Assembly: GCA_902789795.1 (NCBI GenBank)
Contig: CADAPM010000002.1
Span: 124,001 to 188,000, forward strand
DNA: 64,000 nucleotides
Origin: an uncultured Eubacteriales bacterium
Lineage (GTDB): Bacteria > Bacillota > Clostridia > Christensenellales > Aristaeellaceae
Direction: 5' to 3'
Shown here: positions 48,169 to 52,220 of the stretch, piece after piece
Position numbering within the stretch: the first letter of the stretch is position 1
How the letters are laid out: each line of letters begins with the position of its first letter
Translations under genes and position numbers: made by a program
The notes under the pieces: generated by a model
Seen by the model: the letters and a program-made list of their open reading frames with translations, nothing else
Told to the model about the DNA's origin: nothing
Databases searched by the model: none

Positions 48169-49275
48169 ATGAATTATACCTTGATCGCCACTGCCGCTTT
48201 CGGCCTCGAAGGCATCGTCAAGCGCGAGCTGAGCCAGCTGGGCTACGAAGGGAAGACGGAAAACGGCTTCGTCCGCTTTGAGGGCAGCCTGGAGGACGCC
48301 TTCCGGGCCAATCTCTGGCTCAGGACGGCGGACCGCGTGCTGATCCTGATGGCAGAAGGTCCGGTCATGACCTTTGAAGACCTTTTTCGCCTGGTGCGCG
48401 GCGTTGCCTGGCAGGAGCTGATGCCCCGGGACGCGGCGGCGCCCGTCAGCTGCAAGTGTGCCCGGAGCCAGCTCATGAGCCCCTCGGACTGCCAGGCGAT
48501 TGCCAAGAAGGCCCTGTCCGAAGAGCTGATGGCCTATTACCACATGACCTGGTGCTCTGAGAGCGGCCCCCGCTATCCCGTGCACATCTCCATCCACCAG
48601 AATCAGGCCCGGATCATGGTGGATACCAGCGGCGACGCGCTGAACAAGCGAGGCTACCGCACCTGGAACGGGGAAGCGCCCCTGCGCGAGACCCTGGCCG
48701 CGGCCATGGTGATGCTGTCAGGCTGGCGGAATACGACCCCGCTGCACGACCCCTGCTGCGGCACCGGCACTTTGCTGATCGAAAGCGCCTTCCTCGCTGC
48801 GGACCGCGCGCCCGGCCTGACCAGAAGCTTCCTGCTGGAGACCTGGCCCAAGGTGGATCAGAAGCTGCTGGAGCGCTACCGCAACGAAGCCAAGGCGGCC
48901 TACAAGCCCGATCAGCTGCCGCCCATCAGCGGCTCGGATATCGACCCCGAGGCGGTGGAACTGTGCAAGCGGCACATCCATCAGGCCGGTCTGGACGGGC
49001 GCATCGAGGTGAGCGTGGCGGATCTGCGCAATCTGCAGCTGCCCGACGGGAAGGTGCAGTTCCTGGCGAACCCGCCCTACGGCGAGCGCCTGAGCGACCA
49101 GAAGCAGTGCATGTCCATCTACAAGGGCATGCGCGGGCTGATGGACCGCCACCCCCAGGCCCACCTGGCCGTCCTGTGCGGCAACCCCTCCTTTGAGCGG
49201 GCGTTCGGCCGCAGGGCAAACAAAAAGCGGCGTTTCTACAACGGCCGCCTTGAGTGCGATTATATGCTGTTCTGA
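48169..49275 (+). CDS. THUMP-domain class I RNA methyltransferase (RlmL/YpsC-like)
   Basis: A 368-residue SAM-dependent enzyme that probably makes N2-methylguanine in 23S rRNA. A THUMP RNA-binding domain (about 45-155) precedes a UPF0020 Rossmann methylase with DPCCGTGTLLIE and the catalytic NPPYGERL. The length matches the short single-methylase form found in Firmicutes, not the long fused E. coli RlmKL. The ATG at 48169 has AAAAGGGGA upstream. Its end overlaps the convergent rimI by 16 bases. Confidence 0.93.
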   Translation: MNYTLIATAAFGLEGIVKRELSQLGYEGKTENGFVRFEGSLEDAFRANLWLRTADRVLILMAEGPVMTFEDLFRLVRGVAWQELMPRDAAAPVSCKCARSQLMSPSDCQAIAKKALSEELMAYYHMTWCSESGPRYPVHISIHQNQARIMVDTSGDALNKRGYRTWNGEAPLRETLAAAMVMLSGWRNTTPLHDPCCGTGTLLIESAFLAADRAPGLTRSFLLETWPKVDQKLLERYRNEAKAAYKPDQLPPISGSDIDPEAVELCKRHIHQAGLDGRIEVSVADLRNLQLPDGKVQFLANPPYGERLSDQKQCMSIYKGMRGLMDRHPQAHLAVLCGNPSFERAFGRRANKKRRFYNGRLECDYMLF

Positions 49276-49778
49276 GGTTCTTCCTCGTCCTCATATGCCG
49301 TCTCCGCTTCCGTGAAATCCGGATCCGGGGGCGGCATTTTGTCGGTCACCATCACGTGGGCGTCGATCTGGCCCTCGTAATACTTCTTCCGGACGCCCAC
49401 CTTGAAGAAGCCCAGGGACTTGTACAGGCTCTTGGCCGGCTCGTTGTTCTCGCGCACCTCCAGGGTCACGTAGGAGACGCCCAGGTTCGAGGCGTACTGC
49501 AAGAGCGCCGTCGCCAGCATCCGGCCGACGCCCTGGCCCCGCTCCTCCCGGGTGATGGCGATATTGGTGATATGCCCCTCATCCAGGATGATATGGATCC
49601 CGGCAAAGCCGATGATCTGATCTTCCTTCACCGCTACCAGATAGCGCGCGCAGGGGTTCTCCCGCATCTCGTGCTCGAAGTCGCGCAGGCTCCAGGGCGT
49701 CGGGAAGGTGGCGTTTTCAATCGTCCAGACTGCCTGGACGTCCTCTGCCGTCATGCGGCGGATCGTGATCTCACTCAT
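49260..49778 (-). CDS. rimI: Ribosomal protein S18-alanine N-acetyltransferase RimI
   Basis: A 172-residue GNAT acetyltransferase. The acetyl-CoA loop is RGQGVGRMLATALL (about 82-95), and LEVRENNEPAKSLYKSLGF is the RimI-typical block. The C-terminal 25 residues (PPPDPDFTEAETAYEDEEEP) are an acidic extension. It follows tsaB with a 4-base overlap, as in many genomes where rimI, tsaB and tsaE form one operon. Here that operon is preceded by a riboswitch-controlled transporter gene. Confidence 0.93.
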   Translation of the reverse strand: MSEITIRRMTAEDVQAVWTIENATFPTPWSLRDFEHEMRENPCARYLVAVKEDQIIGFAGIHIILDEGHITNIAITREERGQGVGRMLATALLQYASNLGVSYVTLEVRENNEPAKSLYKSLGFFKVGVRKKYYEGQIDAHVMVTDKMPPPDPDFTEAETAYEDEEEPQNSI

Positions 49779-50479
49779 AGCTGCGCGTGCTCCACCAGGT
49801 TGCGCTGGCGCACCGCCTGGGGCGCGCGGAGGTAATAGGGCTTGAGGGTGTCCGCATCCACGGCGCTGTCCAGGCGTTCTGACGCCAGCACCGCCGCCGC
49901 GGCCGGGTTCAGATAAGCATGGGCCGCATCCGCAAAATAGAGCTCCGGCCAGCGCAGGCCTTCCAGTTCCTTCCGGTAGGCGGTCATGCCGTCGCCGGTC
50001 AGCAGCACGGGGCGGCCATGGGCCACCTCCCGCGCCTGGGTCAGCAGGTCGCCGATCGCGATAGGCTGATCCTCCATCAGCTGCTGTCCAGTCATGCCGT
50101 TAAACAGCGCGGCATAGACCTGACCGCGGCGGGCATTCTGCATCGGACAGATGACGCCGTTGAACACGCCCTGGCTGCGGCTCATGGCCTCGAGGGCAGA
50201 CACCGGCACGCAGGGTTTTCCGCATGCCTTGGCCAAGGCCTTGACCGTGGTGACGCCGATGCGCACGCCGGTAAAGGAGCCCGGGCCCGCTACAACGGCG
50301 AAATAATCCGTGTCCGCCGCCGTAAGCCCGGCCTTGTCATAGGCCTCTTCGGTCATGGAGAGGGCCGCTTCCGAATGGGTCATCAGGTTGTTGACCGCCG
50401 CCTCGTAGCGGATGACCCCATCCTGCCACAGGGCGACGCCGGCCGTCGGGCCGGAGGTATCCAGCAAATAGATCAGCAT
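49775..50479 (-). CDS. tsaB: tRNA threonylcarbamoyladenosine biosynthesis protein TsaB
   Basis: A 234-residue actin-fold protein that, with TsaD and TsaE, installs t6A at position 37 of tRNAs. The N-terminus YLLDTSGPTAGVALW and the middle VVAGPGSFTGVRIGVTTVKALA are the TsaB landmarks. It is a shortened ASKHA protein with no ATPase motif of its own, as usual. I start at the ATG at 50479; a longer open frame begins inside tsaE. tsaD, the catalytic partner, is not in the window. Confidence 0.95.
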   Translation of the reverse strand: MLIYLLDTSGPTAGVALWQDGVIRYEAAVNNLMTHSEAALSMTEEAYDKAGLTAADTDYFAVVAGPGSFTGVRIGVTTVKALAKACGKPCVPVSALEAMSRSQGVFNGVICPMQNARRGQVYAALFNGMTGQQLMEDQPIAIGDLLTQAREVAHGRPVLLTGDGMTAYRKELEGLRWPELYFADAAHAYLNPAAAAVLASERLDSAVDADTLKPYYLRAPQAVRQRNLVEHAQL

Positions 50480-50486
50480 TACTCGT

Positions 50487-51323
50487 TTACTCCGTGAGCC
50501 ATTGTTCTGCATTCCTGAAGCCGCCCCGGGGATTCAGGTGGATGATCCGCCGCTCGGGATCGAGGGGCATGATCGTGACTTCCAGCCGTTCCTCCGGCAG
50601 CAGCTCCGGGGCCTGCTCCGCCCACTCGACCAGGGTCACGCCGGGGCCGGGCAGGTGCTCCTCCGCGCCGATGGCGGTCAGCTCCTCCGGGTCCTCGATG
50701 CGGTACCAGTCGTAGTGATACAGGGCGATCTTCCCCGTCTCGTAGACATTCAGGATGGTAAAGGTGGGGCTGGGCAGCGCGCCGGTGATGCCGAGGCCCC
50801 GGGCGATGCCCCGGGCGAACTCGCTCTTGCCCGCGCCCAAAGGCCCGCTCAGGGTCAGCACATCGCCCGCGCGCAGGTGTTGGGAGAGTCTCGTCCCCGC
50901 CTGCCTCGTCTCTTCCGCGCTGCGTGTGAGGAGGTCCGAGGCCATGAAGGCCTTGGACACCTCCGCGCCGCTTGCAGCGTCGTGATCGATCTGCGCCTTC
51001 AGTTCGTGCATATCCTCAAAGGCGCGGATGCCCCGCAGGTACTTGAGCAGGATCACGGCGGCATGCCGGCCGTAGAGGTCGCCCTGATAGCCGGGCAGCC
51101 AGGTCTCCACGGTCGCGCGGGCGCTCTGATCGGCGGTGGGGCGGGTGCCCACGTTGGTGACGCCCGCAAGCATCTGCCCGTCGTCGGTCACCAGCACCGC
51201 GGCATAGACGCCGTAGGCAGGCAAGGTCTGATGCTCCACGCGCAGGTTCGCGGTGGGAAAGCCGTTCAAATGCCCTTTTCCCTGCCCGTGTTCGATCACG
51301 CCCTGCAGGATCACTGTTTCCAT
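50487..51323 (-). CDS. tsaE: Riboflavin kinase-TsaE fusion protein
   Basis: A 278-residue protein joining two enzymes. Residues about 1-120 are a riboflavin kinase (RibF C-terminal) domain: GKGHLNGFPTANL with PTAN at 23-26, GVTNVGTRPT at 54-63, the likely catalytic Glu73 in VETW, and GDLYGRHAAVILLKYLRGIRAF-type sequence. Residues about 127-278 are a complete TsaE with Walker A GPLGAGKS (160-167), SPTFTILNVY and the VEWAE motif. The FAD synthetase half of RibF is missing. The two halves meet at Met127, which could also serve as an internal start (GGAGGTG 12 bases upstream). TsaE drives the TsaBDE t6A cycle by ATP hydrolysis. The fusion is the most unusual gene in this window. Confidence 0.88.
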   Translation of the reverse strand: METVILQGVIEHGQGKGHLNGFPTANLRVEHQTLPAYGVYAAVLVTDDGQMLAGVTNVGTRPTADQSARATVETWLPGYQGDLYGRHAAVILLKYLRGIRAFEDMHELKAQIDHDAASGAEVSKAFMASDLLTRSAEETRQAGTRLSQHLRAGDVLTLSGPLGAGKSEFARGIARGLGITGALPSPTFTILNVYETGKIALYHYDWYRIEDPEELTAIGAEEHLPGPGVTLVEWAEQAPELLPEERLEVTIMPLDPERRIIHLNPRGGFRNAEQWLTE

Positions 51324-51347: not shown

Positions 51348-51944
51348 TTATTTTGTCTTGCCCTTCAGCAGCGGGGACAGGGGCTTGTAGATGAGCCCGG
51401 TCACCACGCTCAGGACGAAGCCCTTGAGCAGGTTGAAGGGGGCCGTGATGAGCAGCAGCAGCTTCCATTCGCTGTCCACGCCCGCCACGTTGGCGTACTT
51501 GATGATGCTGTCCATATCCATGTGGAACGCGCCCATGTAGAAGGGCAGCATGATCCACTTGTTGACGAACACCGACACCGCCACCATGCAGACCGTGCCC
51601 ACGGCCAGGCCGATCAGCGCCGTCTTCTTGGTCTTGTTGCGCTGGTACATGAGCGAAGCCGGGATCACCAGGGCCGCGCCCATCAGGAAGTCGGCCAGCT
51701 CGCCCACCCCCGCCGAGGAGGAGTGCAAAAGGCCGATCACGCTCTTGAGCGCCAGGATGATGACGCCGGGCACCGTGCCCATGGAGAAGGCGCCCAGCAG
51801 CACCGGGATGTTGGAAAGGTCCAACTTGTAGAAGGCGACGATGGGGATCTCGATCACGAACAGGATGGACGCGATCGCCACCAGGATGGCCATGCGGGTC
51901 AGGTTCAGGGTGCTGAAGGTTTTGCTCTTTGGGGTGTTTGACAT
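51348..51944 (-). CDS. ribU: Riboflavin ECF transporter S component RibU
   Basis: A 198-residue six-helix membrane protein. It binds riboflavin and passes it to the shared energy-coupling module (EcfT and two ATPases, not in this window). The stretch VAFYKLDLSNIPVLLGAF is the RibU-specific substrate loop, and EIPIVAFYKLD and FLMGAALVIP are well conserved. The N-terminal FSTLNLTRMAILVAIASIL starts helix 1. It lies directly behind an FMN riboswitch, which confirms the ligand. The next gene, encoding a flavokinase domain, starts 24 bases later. Confidence 0.95.
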   Translation of the reverse strand: MSNTPKSKTFSTLNLTRMAILVAIASILFVIEIPIVAFYKLDLSNIPVLLGAFSMGTVPGVIILALKSVIGLLHSSSAGVGELADFLMGAALVIPASLMYQRNKTKKTALIGLAVGTVCMVAVSVFVNKWIMLPFYMGAFHMDMDSIIKYANVAGVDSEWKLLLLITAPFNLLKGFVLSVVTGLIYKPLSPLLKGKTK

Positions 51945-51964: not shown

Positions 51965-52003
51965 AAAAATTGCTCGCCTCTCAAGCGTTTCAGAGGCGAG
52001 CAA
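51965..52003 (-). terminator. Riboswitch-controlled terminator before ribU
   Basis: On the minus strand a perfect 12-base-pair stem TTGCTCGCCTCT/AGAGGCGAGCAA around a 10-base loop is followed by TTTTT. It sits between the FMN aptamer and the ribU start and is the classic off-switch when FMN is bound. A small hairpin GATACG/CGTATC (52004-52022) lies between it and the aptamer. Confidence 0.92.
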
Positions 52004-52027
52004 GATACGTTCAAGTCGTATCAAAGC

Positions 52028-52145
52028 TGTCTTCTTCCATCCAGACTGTACTGTCGGTCCCGGAGTTTCACCTGGGTCGGCCGCCCCATAAGGAGCAGTT
52101 CGCGGACTATACCGCCGGTCGGGAATCACACCCTGCCCTGAAAGA
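52028..52145 (-). promoter_or_regulatory. FMN riboswitch aptamer (RFN element)
   Basis: On the minus strand the RFN signature runs AGGGCAGGGTG, ATTCCCGACCGGCGGTAT, CCGACCC, CTCCGGGACCGACAGTA and GTCTGGATGGAAGAAG, in the right order with normal loop lengths. Only one short variable loop (GCTCCTTATGG region) differs from the common form. It should bind flavin mononucleotide and cause termination at 51965-52003, reducing ribU and the downstream flavokinase-TsaE, tsaB and rimI. Confidence 0.96.
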
Positions 52146-52191
52146 CACTTTTTGGAGAGCTTGGTATTACGCGGTTCTTCACCGCGAGATG

Positions 52192-52220
52192 ATACTACCA
52201 CTGTTTAATGCCGCTGTCAA
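52192..52220 (-). promoter_or_regulatory. Promoter of the FMN-riboswitch operon
   Basis: On the minus strand perfect TTGACA (52215-52220), 17 bases, TAGTAT (52192-52197). Transcription would start near 52185. A 6-base-pair hairpin CGCGGT/ACCGCG (52170-52186) would lie at the very 5' end of the RNA. Confidence 0.85.

Follow-up and report, generated by a model that had tools for sequence, protein, structure and literature searches.

Why should an enzyme of vitamin B2 salvage and an ATPase of tRNA modification share one open reading frame? The question is raised by a gene in a 64,000-nucleotide stretch of DNA from an uncultured Eubacteriales bacterium (the whole stretch is called the window below), in which a riboflavin kinase domain is followed by TsaE. 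Most bacteria cannot do without t6A synthesis, in which TsaE serves as the ATPase switch. The gene and its two domains are as follows.

50487..51323, minus strand: riboflavin kinase–TsaE fusion gene, a single open reading frame of 278 amino acids
50970..51314, minus strand: riboflavin kinase domain, residues 4-118 (PF01687, 7.5e-31), with GFPTAN and VETW
50559..50924, minus strand: TsaE domain, residues 134-255 (PF02367, 3e-37), with Walker A GPLGAGKS, SPTF, YHYDWYR, and VEW

The frame runs from an ATG at 51323 to the stop at 50487-50489 (278 codons plus the stop) and contains no internal stops. The earlier note on this DNA described a complete flavokinase followed by a complete TsaE, and this description was borne out: the motifs it quoted are present, and Pfam places Flavokinase (PF01687; 107.4 bits against a cut-off of 19.6, profile positions 5-119 of 124) and TsaE (PF02367; 127.9 bits against 26.6) in that order at the residues given above. 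In NCBIfam, the C-terminal part is a TsaE equivalog (TIGR00150, 119.6 bits, cut-off 60.1), and for the kinase part the sole matches, all scoring below cut-off, are to models of bifunctional RibF, in their C-terminal halves. The kinase domain is thus homologous to the C-terminal half of bifunctional RibF (NF004160, TIGR00083), aligning to positions 194-317 of NF004160 with 97.9 bits, far below the cut-off of 295; the fusion differs from RibF in having TsaE at its C terminus and no FAD synthetase domain (PF06574 was absent by Pfam). RibR of Bacillus subtilis, a monofunctional flavokinase, likewise has no FAD synthetase, but it is not fused to TsaE. The C-terminal half resembles TsaE/YdiB/YjeE (TIGR00150) in that the whole domain scores above the curated cut-off and tsaB follows directly. 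It differs in carrying an N-terminal enzyme and in a Walker A motif that ends in Ser, where that of YdiB ends in Thr. The closest solved TsaE structure is that of Bacillus YdiB (5np9, 42% identity).

Both halves look functional, judging by their conserved residues and predicted folds. GFPTAN, VET, and the TsaE P-loop are invariant across an alignment of nine fusions, and the TsaE signature (GAGKS, SP-F, H-D-YR, EW) is invariant in 17 aligned sequences. In a comparison with the PDB, the TsaE half matched Bacillus TsaE (5mvr, 5np9), and the kinase half matched the riboflavin kinase/FMN adenylyltransferase of Thermotoga (1mrz). GFPTAN and VETW align to GFPTAN and VESF of the Corynebacterium kinase module (5a88), with 1mrz aligned too. 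Given the roles that we take the PTAN motif and a catalytic glutamate to have in riboflavin kinase, Glu73, in VETW, is a candidate catalytic residue of the kinase domain. In the window's own genome (88% complete), the fusion is the sole flavokinase match and the sole TsaE match above cut-off.

An AlphaFold2 model of the fusion, built from 17 aligned sequences of which 5 include the kinase half, had a mean pLDDT of 87.7 and a pTM of 0.85, with weak regions at residues 14-18 (pLDDT below 50) and in the block 61-70 (mean 61). The modeled N-terminal half matched riboflavin kinase structures in Foldseek (1s4m, 3.4e-8; 5a8a, 5.7e-8; human 1nb0, 7.4e-7), and so the flavokinase fold that the earlier note expected there was recovered. 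The TsaE half matched YdiB (8.0e-16) and TsaE of the Thermotoga TsaBDE complex (3.9e-13). The entry of an E268D mutant, 3zug, was also present among the Foldseek listings. On this basis, residues 1-120 would act as an ATP-dependent riboflavin kinase that converts riboflavin to FMN, and residues 130-278 would act as TsaE, whose ATPase activity resets the TsaD-TsaB t6A transferase.

A search of genomes for the same architecture found the fusion in nine: the window's genus (g1) accounts for seven, out of eight genomes, and another genus of the family (g11) for two, out of 11. In this search, for which the query was an alignment of the nine fusions, each of the nine gave a match in a single frame with no stop, covering nearly the full length (the poorest spanning 5-275 of 281), and the linker between the domain models was 21 to 23 residues long in every one of them. 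An assembly artefact can be ruled out because nine genomes share the fusion with a near-constant linker. Samples drawn from the order (396 genomes) and from the class (391 genomes) did not include the other eight fusion genomes, and the matches listed from these samples contained no fusion but that of the window itself. A pattern-based contig scan returned 53 relatives, four of which had both domains (L004 to L007, the same genomes as G081, G141, G083, and G169, with identical scores); in two further relatives, the kinase matches were at chance level (E of 0.5 and 0.7). The sources of these four were rumen or omasum samples, or the genomes bear a RUG isolate code. The fusion is therefore real and conserved but narrow in distribution.

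Might the N-terminal kinase half be vestigial, or serve only a structural role? G123 has the only solo TsaE of the genus, which is without the kinase half, and a search of its genome (80% complete) found no flavokinase. Against this stand the conserved catalytic motifs, the lack of any other flavokinase match in the window's genome, and signs of purifying selection. Of 36 genome pairs computed, 14 were reported and 12 had finite dS; in these 12, dN/dS was 0.05 to 0.45 for the kinase versus 0.08 to 0.56 for TsaE, with several dS values near saturation. These ratios indicate that the kinase half is constrained much as the TsaE half is, and we give a vestigial kinase next to no chance.

The junction between the halves bears on whether they are also made separately. 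The earlier note proposed that Met127, with GGAGGTG 12 bases upstream, may give a separate TsaE. The upstream sequence is there, and a GTG with a weak Shine-Dalgarno (SD)-like sequence occurs in the linker of one other fusion (L070). However, a linker ATG with an SD-like sequence was found in the window only, one of nine fusions, and in another (L069) the linker stretch scanned had no ATG, GTG, or TTG. We rejected a separate TsaE from Met127, as the start is not conserved across the nine. In the model, the last helix of the kinase (residues 105-128) runs almost directly into the first strand of TsaE (130-133), with block pLDDT values of 84 to 95, and there is no low-confidence linker. That two products are made, the full-length fusion plus a free TsaE released by internal initiation at Met127 or by proteolysis, is consequently very improbable.

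We propose that the operon context (FMN riboswitch, RibU, TsaB, and RimI) explains the fusion. Its elements are as follows.

52192..52220, minus strand: promoter-like site, TTGACA, 17 nt, TAGTAT, with TG before the second hexamer (consensus scan)
52025..52150, minus strand: FMN riboswitch aptamer (RFN element, RF00050; Rfam 99.9 bits, gathering 66.2, E 5.9e-22)
51965..52003, minus strand: terminator-like hairpin, a 12-bp outer stem and then TTTTT (fold, pattern scan)
51348..51944, minus strand: ribU, ECF riboflavin transporter S component (Pfam ECF_trnsprt, 1.5e-32)
49775..50512, minus strand: tsaB (TIGR03725, 144.3 bits, cut-off 69.3)
49260..49778, minus strand: rimI, ribosomal protein S18-alanine N-acetyltransferase (TIGR01575, 133 bits, cut-off 86.4)

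The order on the minus strand is thus FMN riboswitch, ribU, fusion, tsaB, rimI. Two promoter-like sites were found in the scanned region, versus 1.0 expected from shuffles, and one of them lies just upstream of the riboswitch. The terminator-like hairpin (-23.2 kcal/mol by script) lies 22 nt after the aptamer, between the aptamer and ribU, and is the probable expression platform. The ribU product matched the structures 3p5n (“Riboflavin uptake protein,” 8.4e-20) and 5kc0 (5e-13), and no NCBIfam model reached its cut-off for this protein; homology to known RibU structures, together with the RFN element upstream, marks it as the probable riboflavin S component. The longest tsaB frame overlaps the end of the fusion gene, and we infer the Met at 50479 to be the likelier tsaB start.

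An FMN riboswitch and ribU lie upstream of the fusion in seven of the nine fusion genomes, and neither was found near the fusion in G006 and G157. In the latter (locus L072), the contig is 3.8 kb long, and the fusion follows a gene for a P-type ATPase. In G006, it lies intact beside a GH127 gene and a gene for an LRR protein, away from the operon, and RibU, TsaB, and RimI were not found in the 11 kb around it; the fusion is therefore kept as one gene even outside the operon. A script detected a hairpin with a U-run in 7 of 9 leaders (those of five fusion operons and of two g11 loci without a kinase, L078 and L079) and found none in the leaders of L068 and L069. In L068, L071, L073, and L074, which span both genera, the place of ribU is taken by a second, distant RibU type, about 29 to 30% identical to the window's RibU (with a Pfam match for L068).

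An FMN riboswitch that has a terminator usually turns expression off. If that is so here, plentiful FMN would cause the riboswitch to end transcription before ribU, and an excess of FMN would therefore lower tsaE and tsaB along with the importer, as well as the kinase and RimI. This presumes that the genes are cotranscribed, as their arrangement suggests. The link that is visible between the riboflavin and t6A genes is a common operon behind an FMN riboswitch, and that t6A genes should stand under such a riboswitch is a more surprising point than the fusion itself.

The earlier note assumed that RibF normally joins its kinase to an FAD synthetase and that TsaE normally stands alone. This generalization fails in the present group, where a split RibF is common and TsaE shares a frame with RibU in many genomes of the order (see below). 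In 200 genomes of the family, we found flavokinase in 135, FAD synthetase in 187, and TsaE in 180; 59 of the 65 genomes in which no flavokinase was found have an FAD synthetase. Among the 104 high-quality genomes, the kinase was absent from 24 and FAD synthetase from one. A CTP-dependent archaeal riboflavin kinase as a substitute was rejected, with none in the 25 genomes searched (24 without a flavokinase and the window's). Many kinases of the family lie in frames of 120 to 240 residues, with FAD synthetase encoded elsewhere. Others share a frame with unrelated partners: a downstream ABC ATPase (L087:1899-3239, L088:2003-3277), an upstream ABC ATPase (L090:423-1538, L093:2896-4257), an upstream GH65 N-terminal domain (L091:121-1815, L092:3029-4663), or a downstream C_GCAxxG_C_C domain (L094:110-967). 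These frames were taken from stop to stop, so that true starts may lie inside them. The kinase–ABC ATPase linker of L087 has a possible internal start.

FAD would be made from the product of the fused kinase by a separate FAD synthetase gene. Such a gene is present in all eight other fusion genomes and was counted in all seven other g1 genomes; in the four fusion genomes for which its place was listed (G054, G081, G083, and G169), it is on a contig other than that of the fusion. No FAD synthetase was found in the window's genome (88% complete), an absence that may be an assembly gap.

Where did the fused gene come from? All nine fused kinases group in a single clade (99/95), and the nine fused TsaE sequences form one clade with the solo TsaE of G123 (99/96), indicating by both trees that the fusion had a single origin. 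Independent fusion in the two genera is not favored, given the single clade of fused kinases. A tree forcing the two fused g11 TsaE sequences together with the solo g11 TsaE sequences was rejected (p-AU of 0.0006), and it therefore appears that the fused gene was probably transferred between g1 and g11. The G123 TsaE falls inside the fused clade, and G123 may have lost its kinase half; a tree with G123 outside was not rejected (p-AU of 0.38).

The kinases nearest to the fused ones are eight stand-alone kinases, which join them in a 17-row clade (100/99). Seven of these eight have RibU upstream together with an FMN riboswitch, one of them with RibU about 1.4 kb away, and because of this the kinase half most likely derives from an operon of the “riboswitch–ribU–kinase” type. 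Three stand-alone kinases outside this clade (L106, L118, and L119) also have RibU and an FMN riboswitch, and overall 10 of the 41 kinase loci L081 to L121 had RibU.

We next consider the operon that would have received the kinase. A scan for RibU, kinase, TsaE, TsaB, and RimI covered 91 loci (90 fetched plus the window), among which four genomes are represented twice and one masked locus, L138, gave no TsaE. RibU lies directly before tsaE in 4 of the 25 loci from the sequence-closest relatives (L008 to L032) and before tsaE in 21 of 40 further loci (one at a distance of 2.1 kb), in the same frame in 6; the 40 are not a random set, since some were favored for their long frames, and some of the loci end at contig ends. 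RibU before tsaE is thus frequent in the order and far from universal. Two g11 loci, L078 and L079, have the order FMN riboswitch–RibU–TsaE–TsaB–RimI without a kinase (L078:4930-6138, L079:5298-6494), and no flavokinase was found in their genomes. Rfam detected an FMN riboswitch at 27 of 33 RibU-positive tsaE loci (17/20 plus 10/13) and at none of seven RibU-negative loci. In L171, TsaB and RimI share one frame.

The same neighbors have also been joined directly. RibU and TsaE share one open frame in L135, L136, L137, L139, L146, L156, L164, L173, L174, and L175; Pfam found an ECF S component and TsaE in one frame in all 10 of these, and an FMN riboswitch is present at nine, the tenth locus, L136, starting at the gene. 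In three of them (L156, L174, and L175), the linker contains a Met. When eight aligned RibU–TsaE rows served as the query, at least 38 of 396 order genomes had a frame that is stop-free over both domains (26 in family f3, 7 in f32, 2 in f9, and a single genome in each of f14, f20, and f24), and at least 16 further matches span both domains with a stop, reflecting either neighboring genes or a flanking stop. The one-frame proteins, among them L135, L136, L137, L139, L164, and L173, resemble the fusion in placing a riboflavin-salvage protein before TsaE and differ in that the partner is a membrane importer rather than a kinase; they would be predicted to tether TsaE to the membrane.

Joining these observations, we postulate that in a single event a kinase gene of the “FMN riboswitch–ribU–kinase” type came to stand immediately ahead of tsaE within an operon arranged as “FMN riboswitch–ribU–tsaE–tsaB–rimI,” and that the kinase and tsaE neighbors then fused in frame through a linker of about 22 residues. 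We infer the intermediate because none of the relatives examined has ribU, kinase, and tsaE side by side unfused; kinase and tsaE adjacent but unfused were found in none of them. The second of the two explanations that the earlier note offered, that two genes of an operon had simply been joined, is probable, as both ribU–tsaE and ribU–kinase operons exist in relatives.

The first of them was functional coupling. FMN formation or flavin binding by the kinase half would modulate TsaE, or the nucleotide state of TsaE would modulate the kinase, so that t6A synthesis would follow flavin supply beyond what common transcription imposes. Such a reading would fit the joining of TsaE to riboflavin proteins in two ways (to the kinase and, in six families, to RibU), the riboswitch at most RibU-positive tsaE loci, the nearly straight passage from kinase helix to TsaE strand in the model, and the persistence of the fusion outside the operon in G006. 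Yet operon adjacency alone could explain repeated fusions, the freed kinase is also found in frame with ABC ATPase, GH65N, and C_GCAxxG partners, and in several relatives ribU–tsaE has been kept with no kinase in between. In addition, the titles and abstracts listed from a mostly open literature gave no link between TsaE, YjeE, or threonylcarbamoyl and riboflavin or its transporter. We regard coupling between the two halves as improbable. The plainest cause is that neighbors were joined in a riboflavin-salvage operon with t6A genes, in a family whose kinase is free and promiscuous. We consider it probable that the fusion is a bifunctional protein made from such neighbors, with two independent active sites and coregulation by FMN; what the two sites most likely have in common is their transcription.

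What is new here is the domain architecture; the enzymes themselves are known. In Alphaproteobacteria, TsaE has a sugar-kinase-like phosphotransferase as its fusion partner, and it occurs in other fusions too. The alphaproteobacterial protein is, like ours, a two-domain protein with TsaE, but its partner is unrelated to flavin metabolism. In the titles and abstracts listed from a mostly open literature, we found neither the kinase–TsaE fusion nor a tie between TsaE and the FMN riboswitch or RibU, and the architecture did not appear in those listed for fusions of TsaE, for split RibF, or for monofunctional kinases.

A broader speculation is that, across the order, t6A modification is tied to flavin status: the FMN riboswitch would govern tsaE–tsaB along with riboflavin uptake, and the repeated tethering of TsaE to the kinase (in g1 and g11) or to RibU (in at least six other families) would make the activity or location of TsaE follow riboflavin import or phosphorylation. 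We think this unlikely on present evidence, but a flavin–t6A link is worth testing because TsaE has been joined in two ways and an FMN riboswitch stands above tsaE–tsaB in several families.

For annotation, the finding corrects an assumption: in this family, riboflavin kinase and FAD synthetase are often encoded by two different genes, with the kinase behaving as a mobile domain. The fusion belongs to a few gut Clostridia, and related bacteria join TsaE to the vitamin B2 importer instead. With an FMN riboswitch heading the operon of tsaE and tsaB, and with TsaE attached to two different riboflavin-salvage proteins, these bacteria suggest a direct link, open to experiment, from the supply of vitamin B2 to the fidelity of translation.
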